Part shown: in pieces, positions 30,684 through 38,979 of the stretch
Layout of the letters: each line of letters begins with the position of its first letter
Position numbering within the stretch: the stretch's first letter is position 1
Assembly (NCBI GenBank): GCA_027490915.1
Contig: JAIXXG010000013.1
Span: forward strand, 1-64,000
DNA: 64,000 nt
DNA from: Microbacteriaceae bacterium
GTDB lineage: Bacteria > Actinomycetota > Actinomycetes > Actinomycetales > Microbacteriaceae
Direction: 5' to 3'
Position numbers and translations under genes: made by a program
Notes under the pieces: model-generated
The model's database searches: none
What the model saw: the letters and a program-made list of their open reading frames with translations, nothing else
Told to the model about the DNA's origin: nothing

Positions 30684-32169
30684 GGGCCTCCCCCTCCAGG
30701 TGCTCCCGCACCGCCTGGCTGAACCGGCGGCCGCGGTCGGCGTAGTCGACGAACTGATCCATGGATGCCGCTGCCGGGGCCAGCAGCACGGTGTCGCCGC
30801 TCTCGGCGACACCGGCGGCCAAGCGCACCGCGCGGGGCATCACCTCCCCAGTGTCGTCGTGGTCGACCTCGAACAGAGGGATGAGCGGCGCGTGTCGCTC
30901 GAACGCCGCGCGCACGGCCGCGCGGTCGGTGCCGATGATGACGGCGGCCCGCAGGCGGTCGCGGTGCGTCTCGACGAGGGGTGCGAGGTCGACGCCCTTG
31001 AGCAGCCCCCCGACGATCCACACCACCGAGCGGTAGGCGCTCAGCGCTGAGGCCGCCGCGTGCGGGTTGGTGGCCTTCGAGTCGTCGACCCAGGCGATGT
31101 CGGCACTGATGGCGATGAGCTCGGTGCGGTGGTGGTCGACGTGGAACCGGCGGAGGGCATCCCGGATCGACACGGGGGCCACGTCGAGGGCCCGCGCGAG
31201 GGCGCAGGCGGCAAGCGTGTTCGCGAGGCCGTGCGGCGTGGCGAGACCGGCCGCCGCGACGTCGGCGAGCTCGGCGAGCTCGAGGGCGCTCGTGCGACGG
31301 TCGTCGAGGAAGGCGCGGTCGACGAGCAGGTCGTCGACGACCCCGATGTCGCTCATGCCCGGCGTGTCGGCGCCGAAGCCGATCGCCCGGCAGCCCTCCT
31401 GCACCTCGGCGTTCTCGACCATGCGGATCGTCGCCGGGTCGGTGCGGTTGAACACCGCGGCGATCCGCGTGTTCTCGTAGACCTTCGCCTTCGCGGCCGC
31501 GTAGGCCTCGGCCGAGCCGTGCCAGTCGTAGTGGTCCTCCGCGAGGTTGAGGCAGACGCTCGCGGCGGGGTGCGGCGCGCCGGGCCCCGCGGTCGGCAGC
31601 CAGTGCAGCTGGAAGCTCGAGATCTCGACGACGAGTACGTCGAAGCCGCCCGGATCACGCACCGCGTCGAGCACGGGGATGCCGATGTTGCCGCAGGGCG
31701 CGACGCGCCGACCGTCCTGCTGCAGCATCGTGGCCGTCAGCTGGGTCGTAGTGGTCTTGCCGTTCGTGCCCGTGATGAGCACCCAGTCGGCGGGCGGCGC
31801 GACCTTGTCGCGCACGCGCCAGGCGAGCTCGATGTCTCCCCACAGCGGCAGGTCGCGCTCGCGCGCCCACGCCACGTGGGGGTGGTCGGGGAGGAAGCCC
31901 GGCGAGACGATGACGAGGTCGAGCGCGAGCGCGTCGAACGCCGGAGGCACCGCATCGGGAGCGGTCAGCTCGATCAGCTCGACGCCGATCACCGGCAGGA
32001 TGCGGGCGCGGTCCTCATCCGGTCGGTGCGCTGCGACATGCACGCGGCAGCCGAGCTCGGCGAGGGTGTCGGCGACCGCGAAGCCCGTCACGCCGAGCCC
32101 GAGCACGAGCACCCGCAGCCCCGACCAGTCGTCGTGCCAGCTCGTCAGGTCATCCGGTCGGGCCACCAC
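30643..32169 (-). CDS. murD: UDP-N-acetylmuramoylalanine--D-glutamate ligase
   Basis: A 508-residue Mur ligase. The N-terminal domain has VLVLGLGVTGFAVADTL, the P-loop is TGTNGKTTTTQL (about residue 135), then CGNIGIPVLDAV, EISSFQLHW, NLAEDHYDWHGS and the C-terminal DDSKATNPHAAASAL with LAPAAASMDQF. It adds D-Glu. Two adjacent GTGs (32169, 32166) are possible; the first overlaps the mraY stop, TAGTG. It is fully intact. Confidence 0.97.
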   Translation of the reverse strand: MVARPDDLTSWHDDWSGLRVLVLGLGVTGFAVADTLAELGCRVHVAAHRPDEDRARILPVIGVELIELTAPDAVPPAFDALALDLVIVSPGFLPDHPHVAWARERDLPLWGDIELAWRVRDKVAPPADWVLITGTNGKTTTTQLTATMLQQDGRRVAPCGNIGIPVLDAVRDPGGFDVLVVEISSFQLHWLPTAGPGAPHPAASVCLNLAEDHYDWHGSAEAYAAAKAKVYENTRIAAVFNRTDPATIRMVENAEVQEGCRAIGFGADTPGMSDIGVVDDLLVDRAFLDDRRTSALELAELADVAAAGLATPHGLANTLAACALARALDVAPVSIRDALRRFHVDHHRTELIAISADIAWVDDSKATNPHAAASALSAYRSVVWIVGGLLKGVDLAPLVETHRDRLRAAVIIGTDRAAVRAAFERHAPLIPLFEVDHDDTGEVMPRAVRLAAGVAESGDTVLLAPAAASMDQFVDYADRGRRFSQAVREHLEGEAHDDGPPTAGSRGS

Positions 32170-33266
32170 TACTGGCTGACCCACTCGAGATAGAAGAGCC
32201 CGACGCCGACCGCCACGAAGAGCCCGCCGATGAGCCAGAAGCGCACGACGACGGTGACCTCCGCCCACCCCTTCAGCTCGAAGTGGTGGTGCAGGGGGCT
32301 CATGAGGAAGATGCGCTTGCCCTTCGTGATCTTGAAGTACGCCCGCTGCAGGATGACCGAGCCGGTGACGATGAGGAACAGGCCGCCGATGAGCACGAGC
32401 AGCAGCTCGGTGCGGGTCAGGATCGCGAGGGCGGCGAGGGCACCGCCGATCGCGAGCGACCCCGTGTCGCCCATGAAGATCTGGGCAGGCGAGGTGTTCC
32501 ACCACAGGAAGCCGATGAGGCTCGCGGCGATCGCGGCGGCGACGATCGCCAAGTCGAGCGAGTCGCGCACCTCGTAGCAGCGGTAGGCATTGGCCGGGTC
32601 GAGAGCCGGGTTCTCGCACGACTGGTTGAACTGCCAGAACGCGATGAAGATGTAGGCCGCGACCGAGAGGATCGACGCACCGGTGGCGAGGCCGTCGAGC
32701 CCGTCGGCGACGTTGACCGCGTTGGACGTGCTGATCACGATGATGTTGACCCAGATCGCGAAGGCGATGACCGCACCGATCGAACCCAGCACGGCGAAGT
32801 CGAGCCAGTGGATGTCGCGCACCGCCGAGATCATCGTCGAGGCCGGCGTCTGCCCGTTCTCGTCCGGGAACGACAGCGCGAGGAGGGCGAAGACCGTCGC
32901 GACGATCGCCTGACCGGCCACCTTCGCCCAGCCGCCGAGACCGAGACTGCGCTGCTTGCGGGTCTTCGTGAAGTCGTCGACGAAGCCGACCACACCCAGC
33001 CCCACCATCAGCAGCAGCACCAGCAGGCCGCTCGCGGTGATGCGCTCGCCGACGACGAGGTGCCCGAAGAAGTAGCCGAGCACCGAGCCGAGGATGAAGA
33101 CGATGCCGCCCATCGTCGGCGTGCCCCGCTTGGTGTGATGCGACTGCGGGCCGTCGTCGCGGATGAACTGGCCCCAGCCGATGCGCTCGAACAGCCGGAT
33201 GAACAGCGGCGTCATGAGCAGCGTGAACGAGAGCGAGAACGCGCCCGCCAGCAGGAGTGCGATCAC
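32169..33266 (-). CDS. mraY: Phospho-MurNAc-pentapeptide transferase
   Basis: A 365-residue, ten-helix transferase that makes lipid I. Characteristic segments are [16 protein letters not shown], the Asp pair in [39 protein letters not shown], and the C-terminal [14 protein letters not shown]. The GTG start overlaps the stop of the murF-like gene (GTGA). An insertion between helices ([18 protein letters not shown]) carries two cysteines. Confidence 0.97.
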
Positions 33267-33919
33267 GAGGCGCCCCCGGAGAGCCGCTCGACGAGCGGGG
33301 TCAGGTCGAGGCCGGCGCCGCCGGTCACGAGGATCACGGTGTCCGGTCCGCTCGTTGCACGCACGAAATCGTACGCGGTGTCGGGGTCGTCCATGAGCAC
33401 GGACTCGCCGTCCCACGAACCCTCGAGCCCGGCCGCCATGTGCAGGTGCCGGGCCTCCTGCCCCACCACGACCAGCTGCCGGATGTCGAGCCGCACGACG
33501 ATGCGCCCGAGAGCATCGTGGGCATCGAGCCGGTCGACCGGCTCCACCGCGAGCGGACCCACGACCGCGAGGGTGCGGAATCCGGAACGACCGAGATCGG
33601 CGAGCACGCGCAGCGACGCGCGCACCTCGTCGGGCTCGAGAGCGGCGGTGTCGTCGAGCAGCAGGGCACCGGCGGCCGTGCGGCGGCGCTGCATGCGGCG
33701 GGGCAGGTCGTCGGTGGGCAGCGCGCTGAGCGCCGCATCCAGCCCCGATCCGGCGGCCAGCGCGGCCTCGAGTGCGCCGATCGCGCGGCGCACGGCCTCC
33801 GACCCGAGCTGCGGGATGCGCACCGTGCGCCGCTCGTCCCCGATCAGCAGCTCGAGCACCGTGCCGGAGGGCTCGGAGCGCGCGTCGTCGATGCGCACCG
33901 CGGTCACGAGCTCGGCCAT
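33263..33919 (-). CDS. Truncated MurF-like protein lacking the UDP- and ATP-binding domains
   Basis: This ORF occupies the exact murF slot between murE and mraY but encodes only 218 residues, where MurF is usually about 450-500. What remains aligns by eye with the end of the central domain ([20 protein letters not shown], where MurF has L-G-x-H-N-x-x-N) and the C-terminal domain ([17 protein letters not shown], then [19 protein letters not shown] and [16 protein letters not shown]). There is no GTNGKT P-loop. The C-terminal DDxYNANP motif reads DDTAALEP (89-96), and the central HN/N residues are lost. The frame is clean and overlaps both neighbours (15 nt into murE, GTGA with mraY), with GAGGCGGG before the ATG, so it looks translated. 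It could be a decayed MurF, a repurposed scaffold, or one half of a split enzyme. Confidence 0.75.
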
Positions 33920-35451
33920 CCCGCCTCGCGCAGGGCCTCGCGAGCGAGAGCGCGCGCGTCGAACGGAACCTTCACGCCGCCGACGTCGCGGTAGTCGAGG
34001 TGGCCCGGGCCCGCCCAGAGCACGGTGTCACCCGGTGCCGCCATCGCCACCGCGACGCGGATCGCCTCCTCGGGCGGCACGACCTCGTGCACCTCGACCG
34101 GGGAGGAGGCCGCGCGCACGCCCTCGAGCAGGGCCGCGCGGATCACCGCCGGGTCCTCCAGCCGCGGGTGGTGGTCGGTCACGATGACGACGTCGCTGCC
34201 CTCGGCCGCGACCCTGCCCATGTCGAAGCGCTTCGTCGCGTCGCGGTTGCCGTTGGCGGCGCACAGCACGATGAGCCGCCCCGGGGTGAACGGCCGCAGG
34301 GCGGCGAGCGTCGTCGCGTAGGCGTCGGCGCTGTGCCCGAAGTCGACGAAGACCGCGGGGCCGCCCTCGCCCGAGACCCGCTCGGCCCGACCGGGAAGGT
34401 AGACGTCGATCGGCGCGTCGCCGAGGGCCGCCTGGATGCTCGCCAGACTGTGCCCGGCCCGCACCAGCATGACGATCGCGAGGCCGGCGTTGGCCGCCAT
34501 ATGCGCTCCGACCACCGGCACGGCGCTCGTGAGCACGGCGCCCTCCGGGCCGTGCAGGGCGAAAGCGGTGCGGTCGGGCTCCTGCGCGGTGATCGTGAGC
34601 CGCCAGTCGGCATCGACCTCCGGCCGCGAGCTGATGGTCGTGACCGGCACATCGGCGAGGGCGGCGACGCGGTCGCCGTAGGCCGAGTCGAGCGAGATGA
34701 CGGCCTGCCGCGTGCGCTCGGCCGTGAACAGCTGGGCCTTGGCCGCGAGGTACGCGTCCATCGTGCCGTAGTCGTCGAGGTGGTCGTGGCTGAGGTTGGT
34801 GAACCCCGTGACGTCGAAGAGCACGCCGTCGACGCGGTGCCGGGTGAGCGCCTGGGCGCTGACCTCGAGCGTCGCCACGTCGATGCCCCGCTCGGCGAGC
34901 AGCGCGATCATCGCGTGCACCTCCGGGGCCTCGGGCGTCGTGAGCCGGCTCGCGGAGCGCTCGCCGTCGATCACCCGCTCGGCCGTCGTGCTGAGGCCGG
35001 TGCGCAGCGCCAGCTGCCGCGCAACGGCGTCGAGCAGGTAGGCCGTCGAGGTCTTGCCGTTGGTGCCTGTCACGCCGAACAGGGTGACCGCAGCATCCGC
35101 GGTGCCGTAGACCCACGCCGACACCGCTCCGAGCATGGCCCGCGGGTGCTCGGCGACCAGCGCGGTCAGCCCTGCGGCGCGCACGCGGTCGAGGCCCGCA
35201 GGGTCGGTGAGCACGGCGACCGCGCCGCGCTCGTGCGCCTCGTCGACGAAGGCGGCACCGTGGGTGTGCGCCCCCTGCAGAGCGACGTAGAGGTCGCCGG
35301 GGTGCACGTGCGAGGCCGCGACGGCGACACCCGTGACGCCCGCCTGAGCGGTATCGCCGTGCACGGCGAGACCGAACGCCTCGGCGAGCTCGGCGAGCGG
35401 GCGCGGTGCCCGGTGCTCGGGTCGCAGCACCGTCAGGGGGGATGGGGGCAC
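33904..35451 (-). CDS. murE: MurE-family UDP-MurNAc-tripeptide synthetase with atypical C-terminal motifs
   Basis: A 515-residue Mur ligase that should add the third stem-peptide residue. The N-terminal domain is followed by an intact P-loop GTNGKT (129-134), [38 protein letters not shown] and the carbamate-Lys region YLAAKAQLF (about 234-242). C-terminal motifs deviate: DYAHTPD reads DFGHSAD (370-376), the GxGGDRD loop reads ANGNRD (399-404) although TKR follows, and the DNPR specificity motif reads DHHPR (426-430). Loss of DNPR argues against meso-DAP as substrate, as inference. GAGG lies 5 nt before the GTG. Confidence 0.92.
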
Positions 35452-35524: not shown

Positions 35525-37300
35525 CTACCAGGCGAGCGGCAGGCGGGGTGCCGGCTCGCTCGACGGGGCGACCCGGAACGTTGTGAGCACCTGGGTCATG
35601 ATCGCCCGGAAGGTGGGCGCCGCGGTAGCCGACGTCCTCATCGTATCGGGCTTGCCGTAGGTGACGACAACGACGTACTGCGGGTCGTCCGCCGGCGCGA
35701 CACCCGCGACCGAGATGATTCGCTGGTCGGTGTAGCGGCCGTTCTCGGCGACCTCGGCGGTGCCGGTCTTGGCGGCGACGCGGTACCCCGGAATGTCGAT
35801 CGTGCGGGCGATCGCGCTGTCGGTGGCGACACCCTGCATCATCGCGAGGGTCGTCTCGGCGGCCGCCTCCGAGACCGCGCGCACGCCCTCCCCCGACGGC
35901 AGGTGCGTCATGGTGCCATCGGGATGCTCGCACCCCGCGACGAGCGTGAGCGGCAGGCGCACCCCGCCGTTGGCGAGCGCCTGGTACGCGCTCGCGATCT
36001 GCGCGCTCGTTGCCGACATGCCCTGGCCGAACATCTGCGTCAGAGCGGTGTGCCCGTCGATGGTCTCCGGGTCGGGCAGGCGCCCGCTGGATTCGCCGAG
36101 GAAGTCGACGGCGGTCTCCTGCCCGATCCCGAAGGCGGCGAGGTAGTCGTGGCGCTGCTGCACGCTCAGGCGCTCGCTCAGCACGGAGGTGCCGGTGTTC
36201 GACGAGCGCACGAGCACACCCGCGGCGGTCAGCCGCAGGTCGTCGTGCGCCCAAGCATCCGTGATGGAGTAGCCATCGATGGTCGGCAGCCGGCCCGGGG
36301 CGACGACCTGCTCGCCGGGGGACGTGAGCCCCGCATCCAGCAGGGCGGCGAAGGTCAGCGACTTGATGACCGAGCCGGGCTCGAACGGGGCGCTGAAGCT
36401 GCGCGAGCCGAGGTTGTCGACGGCGGTGCCATCGACGTCGTTGGGGTCGACCGTGGGCCAGTCGGCGGCGGCGATCACGTGCGCGTCGTCGACGCGCACG
36501 ACCCAGGCCGTCGCCCAGTCGGCGCCGATCGCGATGGCCTGCTCGGCGATCGTCTGCTGCGCGAACCACTGCAGGTCGGCGTCGATGGTCAGGTGCAGCG
36601 TGCCGCCGTCGACGGCCTCCTGCTGCACGACCGTCGTGCCGGGCAGCCGCACCCCGTCGGCGCCCCGCTCGTAGGTCGAGGTGCCGTTCGTCGCTGCGAG
36701 GCAGTCGTCGAGCCGCCGCTCCAGCCCCGTCTGCGGCCCATCGGTGCCGAGGAAGCCGACGAGGTTGCCGGCGATCTGGCCGTTGGGGTACGTGCGGCTC
36801 GGCAGACGCTCCCAGTAGACCCAGGGGATGTCGAGCTCGCGCACGGCCTGGAACTGCTCGGTCGTGACGCGCCGGGCGAGGTAGGCGTGATCGTCTTCGG
36901 GATTCTCGGCGAGCTGCGCCTCGATCTCGGCGCGCATCGCGATCGGATCACCCTCGACGATCGCGGCGACCGCGGCGAGGGCGTCGGCCACCGTGGTCGT
37001 GACCTTCGCCCCCGTCTCCTCATCGGTGCGGGTGTAGTCACGCACGAATCGGGGCGAAACGGTGATGTCGTAGCGGTACACCGAGTCGGCGAGCGGCACC
37101 CCGTTGGCGTCGACGATGTCGCCGCGAGCGCCGTACACGGTGACGGGGATCGACCGGCGCGCCTCCGACTCCTCCGCCAGCTCGGCGGCGCGCACGACCT
37201 GGATGTCGATGAGCCGCACGACGAACGAGCCGAGCACGATCGCGATGAGCAGCGTCCAGGCGGCGAGGCGGCGTCGGGTGCGACGGTCGGCGGTCACCAC
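35525..37300 (-). CDS. ftsI: Septal peptidoglycan transpeptidase (class B PBP, FtsI)
   Basis: A 591-residue protein: short cytosolic tail, one transmembrane helix (about residues 12-30), a PBP dimerisation domain (IPVTVYGARGDIVDANG), and a transpeptidase domain with active-site SxxK in PGSVIKS, SxN in SSNTG, and KTGTA. It cross-links septal wall with FtsW. Two consecutive GTGs begin the ORF. A 73-bp gap to murE follows, with a weak GCGTCA/TGACGC inverted repeat. Confidence 0.96.
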   Translation of the reverse strand: MVTADRRTRRRLAAWTLLIAIVLGSFVVRLIDIQVVRAAELAEESEARRSIPVTVYGARGDIVDANGVPLADSVYRYDITVSPRFVRDYTRTDEETGAKVTTTVADALAAVAAIVEGDPIAMRAEIEAQLAENPEDDHAYLARRVTTEQFQAVRELDIPWVYWERLPSRTYPNGQIAGNLVGFLGTDGPQTGLERRLDDCLAATNGTSTYERGADGVRLPGTTVVQQEAVDGGTLHLTIDADLQWFAQQTIAEQAIAIGADWATAWVVRVDDAHVIAAADWPTVDPNDVDGTAVDNLGSRSFSAPFEPGSVIKSLTFAALLDAGLTSPGEQVVAPGRLPTIDGYSITDAWAHDDLRLTAAGVLVRSSNTGTSVLSERLSVQQRHDYLAAFGIGQETAVDFLGESSGRLPDPETIDGHTALTQMFGQGMSATSAQIASAYQALANGGVRLPLTLVAGCEHPDGTMTHLPSGEGVRAVSEAAAETTLAMMQGVATDSAIARTIDIPGYRVAAKTGTAEVAENGRYTDQRIISVAGVAPADDPQYVVVVTYGKPDTMRTSATAAPTFRAIMTQVLTTFRVAPSSEPAPRLPLAW

Positions 37301-37322: not shown

Positions 37323-37925
37323 TCAGCGCGTCACCGGCGAAGGCAGAGCCCCGGGCGGGCTCGCGCTCGGTGCCGACGGTAGCGACCCCGACGACGACGG
37401 CGTCGGAGGCGCGCTCACGCCCGCCGCCGATGCACCCCCCGTCGCCGCCGGGGTCACGAGGGGCACGTCGGTCAGCAGCACGTTTCCGACGAGATCGCCC
37501 CGTCCGTCGAGCACCCCGGAGCCGGCCCCCGCCGGCGTCGGGGCGCCCTGCACGGCGCCAGTGGAGAGAAGGAGGAATGCGGGGCTCACCGTGCTCACGA
37601 CCATGCCGAGCGACTCGGCGTTCGCCGCGACGTTCTGGGCGGAGTCGTACACGTTGAGCCGCTCGGTGAGCACCTGGGCGGTGCGGTCGAGCTCGACACG
37701 CTGCGCCTCGAGCGCGGTGATGCGGTAGGCGCCGTCGGAGAGCACGATGCTCAGCAGCAGCTGCGCCAGCAGGATCGCGAAGACTCCCGCGACGGTCGCG
37801 ACGGCGTACAGCGCACGGGGCCGGGCACTTCGCTGCGCGCGCGTGGGAACGACCTCGAGCGGCGGACGCGCGGGGCTCTGTAGCGGCGCGCGGCGCGGCG
37901 CGGCCGTGATCGGAACGGCGCTCAT
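37323..37925 (-). CDS. FtsL-like bitopic division protein
   Basis: A 200-residue protein in the ftsL slot between rsmH and ftsI. A basic cytosolic tail (to about residue 37), one transmembrane helix (about 40-62) and a short coiled coil (YRITALEAQRVELDRTAQVL) with LNVYDSAQNVAANAESLGM are FtsL-like. After about residue 125 comes a long Pro/Ser/Ala/Gly-rich extracytoplasmic tail that FtsL homologues elsewhere lack. Assignment rests mainly on position and topology. The ATG overlaps the rsmH stop (ATGA). Confidence 0.8.
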   Translation of the reverse strand: MSAVPITAAPRRAPLQSPARPPLEVVPTRAQRSARPRALYAVATVAGVFAILLAQLLLSIVLSDGAYRITALEAQRVELDRTAQVLTERLNVYDSAQNVAANAESLGMVVSTVSPAFLLLSTGAVQGAPTPAGAGSGVLDGRGDLVGNVLLTDVPLVTPAATGGASAAGVSAPPTPSSSGSLPSAPSASPPGALPSPVTR

Positions 37926-38875
37926 GCGGCCTCCCGCACACGCTCGGCGGCGCGCAGCCGCACGGGGATCGCTCGCGGGTTGCGCGCGCGCTCGGCGTCA
38001 TCGGCGAGCTCCGCTCCCCGCACCAGGAGGGCGAACTCCGGGCGGTGCTCGGGCAGCTCGATCGGCAGTCCGCTCGGCGCGGTCGAACGCGTGCGCGCGG
38101 CGAGCTCGCGCTTGACGATGCGGTCTTCGAGCGACTGGTACGCGAGCACGACGATGCGTCCGCCGAGCGCGAGAGCGTCGAGGGCCGCCGGGAGCGCCGC
38201 CTCGAGCGCCTCGAGCTCGCCGTTCACCTCGATGCGCAGGGCCTGGAAGACGCGCTTCGCCGGGTGCCCTGCCCGCTGCACGGCACGAGGGGTCGCCTGG
38301 GCGATCAGGTCGACCAGCTGCGACGACCGCTCGATGGGATGCTCGGCGCGGGCCTGCACGATGCGGCGCGCGTACCGCGGCGCCAGCTTCTCCTCCCCGT
38401 AGGCGTAGAAGATTCGGCGCAGCTCGTCCTCCGGGTAGTCCGCGAGGATGCTCGCCGCCGTCACGCCGCGCGTGCGATCCATGCGCATGTCCAGCGGCGC
38501 GTCCTGCGCGTAGGCGAATCCCCGCTCGGCCTGGTCGAGCTGCATCGACGAGACGCCGAGGTCGAACAGCACGGCGCTGACGCTCTCGATGCCGAGGCCG
38601 TCGAGCGCGGTCCGCAGTCCGCTGTACACGGTGTGCACCAGGTGCACCCGGTCGCCGAAGCGCGCGAGCCGCTCGCCAGCACGGGCGAGCGCGTCGGTGT
38701 CGCGGTCGAGGCCGACGAGCGTGAGGCCCGCGTGGCGCTCGAGCGCCGCCTCCGCGTGGCCCCCGAGACCGAGGGTGGCGTCGACGAGCACCGCCCCCTC
38801 GCGCTCGAGAGCAGGGGCCAGCAGCTCGAGGGTGCGCTCGAGCATGACGGGGATGTGCACGGGAGTCTCTGCCAT
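37922..38875 (-). CDS. rsmH: 16S rRNA (cytosine(1402)-N(4))-methyltransferase
   Basis: A 317-residue SAM-dependent methyltransferase: HIPVMLERTLELL, SAM loop VDATLGLGGHAEAAL, VGLDRDTDAL, FDLGVSSMQLDQAERGF, the inserted helical domain (YGEEKLAPRYARRIV), RVFQALRIEVNGELEALE and AYQSLEDRIVK. It methylates C1402 of 16S rRNA. Its position after mraZ is canonical. An alternative GTG lies one codon upstream. Confidence 0.97.
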   Translation of the reverse strand: MAETPVHIPVMLERTLELLAPALEREGAVLVDATLGLGGHAEAALERHAGLTLVGLDRDTDALARAGERLARFGDRVHLVHTVYSGLRTALDGLGIESVSAVLFDLGVSSMQLDQAERGFAYAQDAPLDMRMDRTRGVTAASILADYPEDELRRIFYAYGEEKLAPRYARRIVQARAEHPIERSSQLVDLIAQATPRAVQRAGHPAKRVFQALRIEVNGELEALEAALPAALDALALGGRIVVLAYQSLEDRIVKRELAARTRSTAPSGLPIELPEHRPEFALLVRGAELADDAERARNPRAIPVRLRAAERVREAA

Positions 38876-38979
38876 GACGCTGCCGGTTCGGGCCGCGGGT
38901 TCCTGATCCCCATCCGTGGCGACCTGGCACCGGGGAAGGTGCGCCAGGGCGGGCGACGGCTGGGAGTCAGGGCCCACGG

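Follow-up and report, generated by a model that had tools for sequence, protein, structure and literature searches.

A family-wide change in the MurE substrate pocket of Microbacteriaceae, and a MurF reduced to its C-terminal domain in genomes encoding a predicted membrane MurF

In MurE enzymes that add meso-DAP to the stem peptide, the Asn and Arg of the DNPR motif bind the DAP carboxyl, and the distal amine is held by the Asp of the same motif together with a glutamate, E468 in E. coli (PMC3829189, excerpts). The L-Lys-adding enzyme of S. aureus binds its substrate through few contacts, and its selectivity is ascribed largely to the lysine pool rather than to the pocket. Changing its DNPA to DNPR conferred no DAP activity in the work excerpted there, so specificity depends on more than this motif (PMC3829189). 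L-homoserine is listed among the known third residues (PMC3681970), and, as far as the available excerpts of these sources go, type-B peptidoglycan with Dab, Hse, Orn or Lys occurs in Microbacteriaceae (PMC4156110, PMC5945732, PMC10757982). The reports include B2gamma peptidoglycan with Dab in Subtercola and L-Dab in Agreia (PMC5945732), Hse, Gly and Dab in Rhodoluna (PMC4156110), and D-Orn, L-Lys or Dab in Microbacterium (PMC10757982). A search of the open-licence PMC literature, which gives weak evidence of absence, yielded nothing that we recognised as work on MurE specificity in Microbacteriaceae or as a membrane MurF displacing MurF.

The window, by which we mean the whole 64,000-nucleotide stretch of Microbacteriaceae DNA analysed here, contains a dcw cluster whose open reading frames run rsmH, ftsI, murE, short murF, mraY, murD, ftsW, murG and murC; the last two names were assigned from reading the frames. 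Coordinates are collected in Table 1. The MurE product has all three Mur ligase Pfam domains, exceeds the cut-off of the TIGR01085 murE profile (350.8 against 257.3 bits), and is 53-58% identical to MurE of named Microbacteriaceae, the identity by which we assign the window to this family. When it was aligned with other MurE, its Walker sequence TGTNGKT proved intact and the middle-domain lysine of KAxLF was present (YLAAKAQLF). A sequence-only reading of this DNA had called the ATPase half canonical, and the analysis confirmed that it is intact. The protein scored below the cut-off of every DAP equivalog profile listed, the best being NF001124 (423.4 against 476), and far below that of the Lys equivalog NF010628 (209.1 against 536 bits).

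Table 1. Positions of the genes and motifs discussed; coordinates refer to the window unless a locus of the same genome is named.
Feature	Position	Strand	Remarks
murE, 515 aa, GTG start	33904..35451	minus	dcw cluster; from ORF, domain and profile searches, alignments
DFGHSAD (aa 370-376), MurE	34324..34344	minus	from alignment
NGNRD (aa 400-404), MurE	34240..34254	minus	Asn for Asp, as also in DAP MurE 8g6p; not diagnostic
HHPR (aa 427-430), MurE	34162..34173	minus	DNPR position of DAP-type MurE; Arg430 kept
Leu485, MurE	33997..33999	minus	position of the distal-amine Glu (E. coli E468); role of Glu from PMC3829189 (excerpts)
MurF C-terminal-domain relic, 218 aa	33263..33919	minus	overlaps murE stop; no Walker, no YNANP; mean pLDDT 95, pTM 0.90
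mraY, 365 aa from family start	32169..33266	minus	directly after MurF relic; matches in three other genomes, 47-70% identity
ftsI (PBP)	35525..37300	minus	upstream of murE; as query, matches in dcw loci
rsmH (mraW)	37922..38977	minus	head of dcw cluster; matches in dcw loci
TM-MurF, 549 aa	L058 9436..7787 (window's genome)		between alpha/beta hydrolase and ddl
alpha/beta hydrolase	L058 9433-10182	minus	precedes TM-murF
GatD	L059 2880-3629 (G000:C126, window's genome)	minus	no catalytic Cys

The C-terminal motifs were altered, as the same reading had claimed: DFGHSAD, NGNRD, TDHHPR and AGPGHLDY are all present. Its comparison of DHHPR with DNPR identified a real change in the wrong register. 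TDHHPR aligns with TDDNPR of the DAP-type structures 8g6p and 2wtz, the leading D being the conserved Asp that precedes the motif, and the true counterpart is HHPR, in which Asp and Asn have both become His while Pro and Arg stay. A further change, absent from that reading, is the loss of the E468-equivalent Glu, which is Leu485 here because AGKGHE has become AGPGHL. Neither the DNPR motif nor the glutamate that hold meso-DAP is thus found in this enzyme. The departure from GxGGDRD is also present, as NGNRD, but its value for specificity did not survive comparison: the DAP MurE of M. thermoresistibile, a solved structure (8g6p), likewise reads GNRD. We therefore treat NGNRD as weaker evidence and rejected ANGNRD as a specificity signature; the longer form AANGNRD was seen, among the aligned MurE, only in the window's subclade.

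These changes were placed in an alignment of 86 MurE rows (83 distinct), 74 of them from the window's family and named Microbacteriaceae and 12 from an outgroup. DNPR occurs in none of the 74 family rows; 59 have HH at its first two positions, and all 74 keep its Arg. The glutamate is retained in only five (four Plantibacter and one Subtercola) and is replaced by Leu in eight, the window's own subclade among them, and two congeners have FDSR at the DNPR position. Outgroup rows, in contrast, have DN in 11 of 12 cases and Glu in 12 of 12, and these counts indicate that the pocket change is old and family-wide. The motif pattern is a clade-wide signature rather than chance and is ordinary for Microbacteriaceae. 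We accordingly rejected the idea that the rewriting is unique to this organism, and the suggestion that stem-peptide assembly here looks unusual does not hold for the MurE motifs, although it does for the short MurF described below.

Some rows in this survey differed in other ways. In a small-genome lineage (g43; seven rows, L142-L148) MurE reads DDPR, DAGRSAD or DAGRSPD, GTSGNRD and GPGSQ, with Gln in the last, and at the level of sequence this is a second pocket variant within the family. One genome (G171; L124, L149) contains two murE genes, the second 48% identical to that of the window, with HHSR and a Tyr at the Glu position; this second copy is either a genuine paralogue or the result of contamination. 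A Microbacteriaceae-like MurE is also encoded on a contig (L050) that bears the label Stenotrophomonas maltophilia, probably a contamination in the public record.

Because DNPR is missing from every family row and the glutamate survives in only five, a residue other than DAP at position 3 is very likely. That part of the earlier claim stands. We propose that MurE activates the UDP-MurNAc-dipeptide with ATP as usual and that its pocket, stripped of the meso-DAP contacts and of the acidic pair for the distal amine, would accept another amino acid, most likely L-homoserine. The choice of homoserine is a guess, made because both acids that serve the distal amine are gone and an amine-free residue is the most economical explanation. 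With the DNPR Arg retained, a carboxylate-bearing substrate would be compatible with that position.

Addition of a diamino acid (L-Lys, L-Orn or L-Dab) instead of homoserine is quite possible, if somewhat short of an even chance. The His and Leu could fit a side chain that is shorter or sits differently in the pocket; Lys, Orn or Dab is found in the walls of family members, including L-Dab in Agreia and Dab in Subtercola, as cited above; and the S. aureus enzyme manages with few contacts to its lysine. The pocket itself speaks for homoserine over this proposal, in that both distal-amine acids of the E. coli and S. aureus enzymes are replaced in the window's MurE, whereas MurE of Subtercola, with its reported Dab wall, retains the Glu. 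Of 28 genomes, 3 scored above the cut-off of the canonical Dab aminotransferase profile TIGR00709; neither the window's genome nor any of its 11 sampled congeners was among them. This counts only weakly against a diamino acid, since Plantibacter lacks the match as well, and Dab biosynthesis was dropped as an uninformative discriminator for that reason.

The gene that follows murE encodes a MurF with only its C-terminal domain (PF02875, Mur_ligase_C; 37.9 bits). It scored 53.4 bits against the TIGR01143 murF cut-off of 288.6, and neither a Walker nor a YNANP motif was found in it. Fold prediction gave a well-folded domain, and the eight best Foldseek matches of the model were all MurF (TM-score by query 0.61-0.78). 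A short murF that starts where murE stops was present in 22 of 24 congeners, the loci of the other two (L017, L020) ending soon after murE, and this recurrence led us to reject an assembly or annotation error. The suspicion first raised by the short MurF neighbour, of an unusual stem-peptide assembly, was thus well founded, the C-terminal domain alone being common to the congeners. Relics of 139-142 aa in a neighbouring lineage start at the C domain itself. In two Microbacterium loci (L043, L044) no MurF match was found and murE is not followed by murF; the downstream frames look plsC-like and asparaginase-like from reading their sequences.

A Mur_ligase_M search of the window's genome returned MurE, MurD, MurC, MurT, one protein on contig C114 that appears FolC-like by eye, and a predicted membrane-anchored MurF (TM-MurF). 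The Pfam domains of TM-MurF are PF08245 and PF02875 only; the UDP-binding domain PF01225 was absent from the domain search, predicted helices take its place, and the TIGR01143 score (174.3 bits) lies below the cut-off of 288.6. Its model (pLDDT 90.5) has predicted membrane helices, four by our reading of the helix list, then a long connecting helix and intact middle and C domains, over which it matches MurF structures. The motifs GS[YF]GKT and D..[YF]N[AS]NP were present in TM-MurF of 41 of 41 loci. Within and beyond the family the gene sits in an operon, preceded by an alpha/beta hydrolase gene in 40 of the 41 loci and accompanied by ddl in 39; the exceptions (L160, L099, L155) are short loci. 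Since the hydrolase precedes TM-murF so regularly, and in several families, it may be involved in the step that TM-MurF would carry out.

TM-MurF was found in 31 of 299 family genomes at E < 1e-120, and in the other 268 the best E was weaker than 1e-31. By group, carriers made up 7/7 of g1, 5/5 of g77, 5/5 of g89, 4/4 of g50, 7/7 of g43, 2/3 of g54 and 1/5 of g92. Among these 299 genomes the dcw murF was read in the 31 carriers and in five sister genomes without TM-MurF (one g54, four g92). In every carrier MurF is reduced to 141-337 aa and has no ATPase core or Walker motif; all five sisters have an intact MurF of 467-468 aa with GSNGKT. Plantibacter and Subtercola loci encode a full-length MurF, and TM-MurF was absent from the four genomes of these genera that were searched. 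In one relic-bearing MAG (L047, G629, 1.2 Mb) the search gave no TM-MurF, and incompleteness is the likely cause. When 296 genomes sampled across the phylum were searched, 25 gave a match at E <= 1e-35, some of these matches being partial. Eight carriers outside the family were read at the dcw locus, and in all eight murE is followed directly by mraY, with neither murF nor relic between them. Outside the family, too, TM-murF occurs together with the hydrolase gene and ddl, and some of these outside carriers have a DNPR-type MurE.

Carriers that lack murF altogether, and an operon shared with ddl and the hydrolase, make TM-MurF the likely D-Ala-D-Ala adder wherever it is present. Sequence, fold prediction, operon structure and exclusive co-occurrence together suggest that this step has probably passed from the dcw MurF to TM-MurF, whose gene adjoins ddl at a different place in the genome. 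After such a displacement the old MurF would have lost its catalytic domains repeatedly and kept its C-terminal domain, which among the lineages read is retained only in Microbacteriaceae. The three elements combined, a non-DAP MurE, takeover of the D-Ala-D-Ala step by TM-MurF and retention of the old C-terminal domain, form the account that we consider likely. The family thus offers a repeated natural experiment: where TM-MurF is present, the old MurF loses its catalytic domains and keeps its C-terminal domain, a pattern that points to a second, non-catalytic job of the domain.

A relic that is simply a decaying pseudogene without function would account for the reductive length series, from 337 down to 139-142 aa and devoid of the catalytic motifs, and for the complete loss of murF in outgroup carriers of TM-MurF. 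We regard this as unlikely. The frame is open in every locus read, and its start codon lies a few bases at most from the end of murE; pairwise dN/dS lies between 0.09 and 0.49 in 11 of 11 pairs, which indicates constraint; a near-invariant EGSW-GES stretch runs through the relics; and the fold is predicted with confidence. Mapped onto a MurE tree, the relic label requires five changes, and also five by the starred branches alone, thus at least five label changes, with the same domain retained each time; this was a quick tree of 70 of the 86 rows, with SH-aLRT support only and long branches flagged by the tool. Left out of it were the duplicates L127, L131 and L141, the rows L149, L056, L052 and L050, the outgroup rows L182-L187, and L017, L018 and L020. 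The relic probably persists as a partner, itself without catalytic activity, of MurE or a different enzyme in stem-peptide assembly. A partnership with MurE would suit the overlapping or abutting genes, and MurE-MurF complexes exist, to go by the title of PDB 8f5d. The domain is not generally needed, since the eight outside carriers dispense with it.

It is distinctly unlikely that TM-MurF is an amide ligase of a different kind, such as a type-B branch ligase, with another protein doing the work of MurF. The missing PF01225 domain and the score under the murF cut-off would be natural on that account. Yet the best matches of TM-MurF are MurF both by profile and by fold, ddl adjoins its gene in nearly all loci, the Mur_ligase_M search of the window's genome yielded no other MurF candidate, and carriers outside the family have TM-MurF beside a DNPR-type MurE.

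Less probable again is an arrangement in which the relic supplies its C-terminal domain in trans, the two proteins forming one active ligase: their strict co-occurrence within the family (31/31) would be expected from it, but TM-MurF has a complete C domain of its own with the catalytic motif, and outside the family it does without any relic between murE and mraY (8/8 loci). Finally, that MurE is still a meso-DAP enzyme with a drifted pocket is scarcely credible, the DNPR Arg in every family row and the GNRD of 8g6p notwithstanding, since the Asn and Asp contacts, and in 69 of 74 rows the Glu, are lost family-wide, type-B walls without DAP are reported for the family members covered by the source excerpts, and the window's MurE falls under all the DAP equivalog cut-offs listed.

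The MurT/GatD pair offers a view of the bridge. GatD of the window's genome reads GVGAGF where the S. aureus protein reads ICGGY, and the catalytic Cys was absent from 30 of 30 family loci read (L190-L218 included), these being the best 30 of 93 genomes with a match among 120 searched, with the control Cys taken from S. aureus only. Because the C94S and C94G substitutions of GatD abolish amidation (PMC6113224, excerpts), the family MurT/GatD probably does not use ammonia from glutamine to amidate D-Glu. Such a loss fits type-B walls, where the bridge is attached to the D-Glu carboxyl, and MurT/GatD thereby becomes a candidate bridge (type-B branch) ligase; having given up glutamine, the Cys-less pair would join the bridging amino acid to the alpha-carboxyl of D-Glu. 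Together the MurE pocket, the Cys-less GatD and the reports on named family members suggest indirectly that the window's organism makes a type-B wall, and the Cys-less GatD and TM-MurF make type-B cross-bridge attachment directly testable.

Two tandem alanine-racemase-like genes lie near murT/gatD (L059 1157-1843 and 1759-2883, plus strand) and recur in L230-L236; another racemase match is at G000:C4 in the window's genome. A Tyr stretch, SYGxT[YW], is present in the short upstream gene in 6 of 8 loci, and a PLP Lys was not found there. In the downstream gene all 8 loci show the Lys stretch, and none shows the Tyr stretch. On the usual roles of Lys and Tyr in such racemases, the two genes look complementary and possibly encode an obligate heterodimeric racemase, which would perhaps serve the bridge diamino acid.

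In the textbook order of stem-peptide assembly the MurF step comes before MraY. The lack of a UDP-binding domain in MurT has been explained by its substrate, lipid II, since such a domain would clash with the membrane (PMC6113224, excerpts); by the same logic TM-MurF may act on a lipid-linked tripeptide, in which case MurF and MraY would act in reverse order. We sketch, by analogy and tentatively, a scheme that as a whole remains doubtful: TM-MurF would add D-Ala-D-Ala to the tripeptide of lipid I or II after MraY, the relic would scaffold MurE, and the Cys-less MurT/GatD would be the type-B branch enzyme. TM-MurF suggests, at any rate, that the last stem-peptide step need not be cytosolic.

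Compared with the DAP-type actinobacterial MurE of M. tuberculosis (2wtz) and M. thermoresistibile (8g6p), the window's enzyme shares the whole fold, the ATPase motifs and the DNPR Arg, and differs in DN to HH, in Glu (E468) to Leu and in YAH to FGH. Like the L-Lys-adding MurE of S. aureus (4c12), it is not a DNPR enzyme, but the latter has DNPA and an acidic Glu460 for the amine where the window's MurE has HHPR and Leu. Set against the MurF structures of E. coli (1gg4), A. baumannii (4qf5) and P. aeruginosa (4cvk), the relic matches the C-terminal part and is without the N-terminal and ATPase domains, whereas TM-MurF matches the middle and C-terminal domains and has predicted transmembrane helices instead of the UDP-binding domain. 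In the MurE-MurF complex or fusion of PDB 8f5d, so far as its title tells, the two proteins are physically joined; here the genes are separate and MurF is cut to its C domain. MurT of the S. aureus MurT/GatD complex is likewise a Mur ligase without a UDP-binding domain and acts on lipid II (PMC6113224, excerpts), but TM-MurF is predicted to span the membrane, is a MurF by sequence and is encoded beside ddl.
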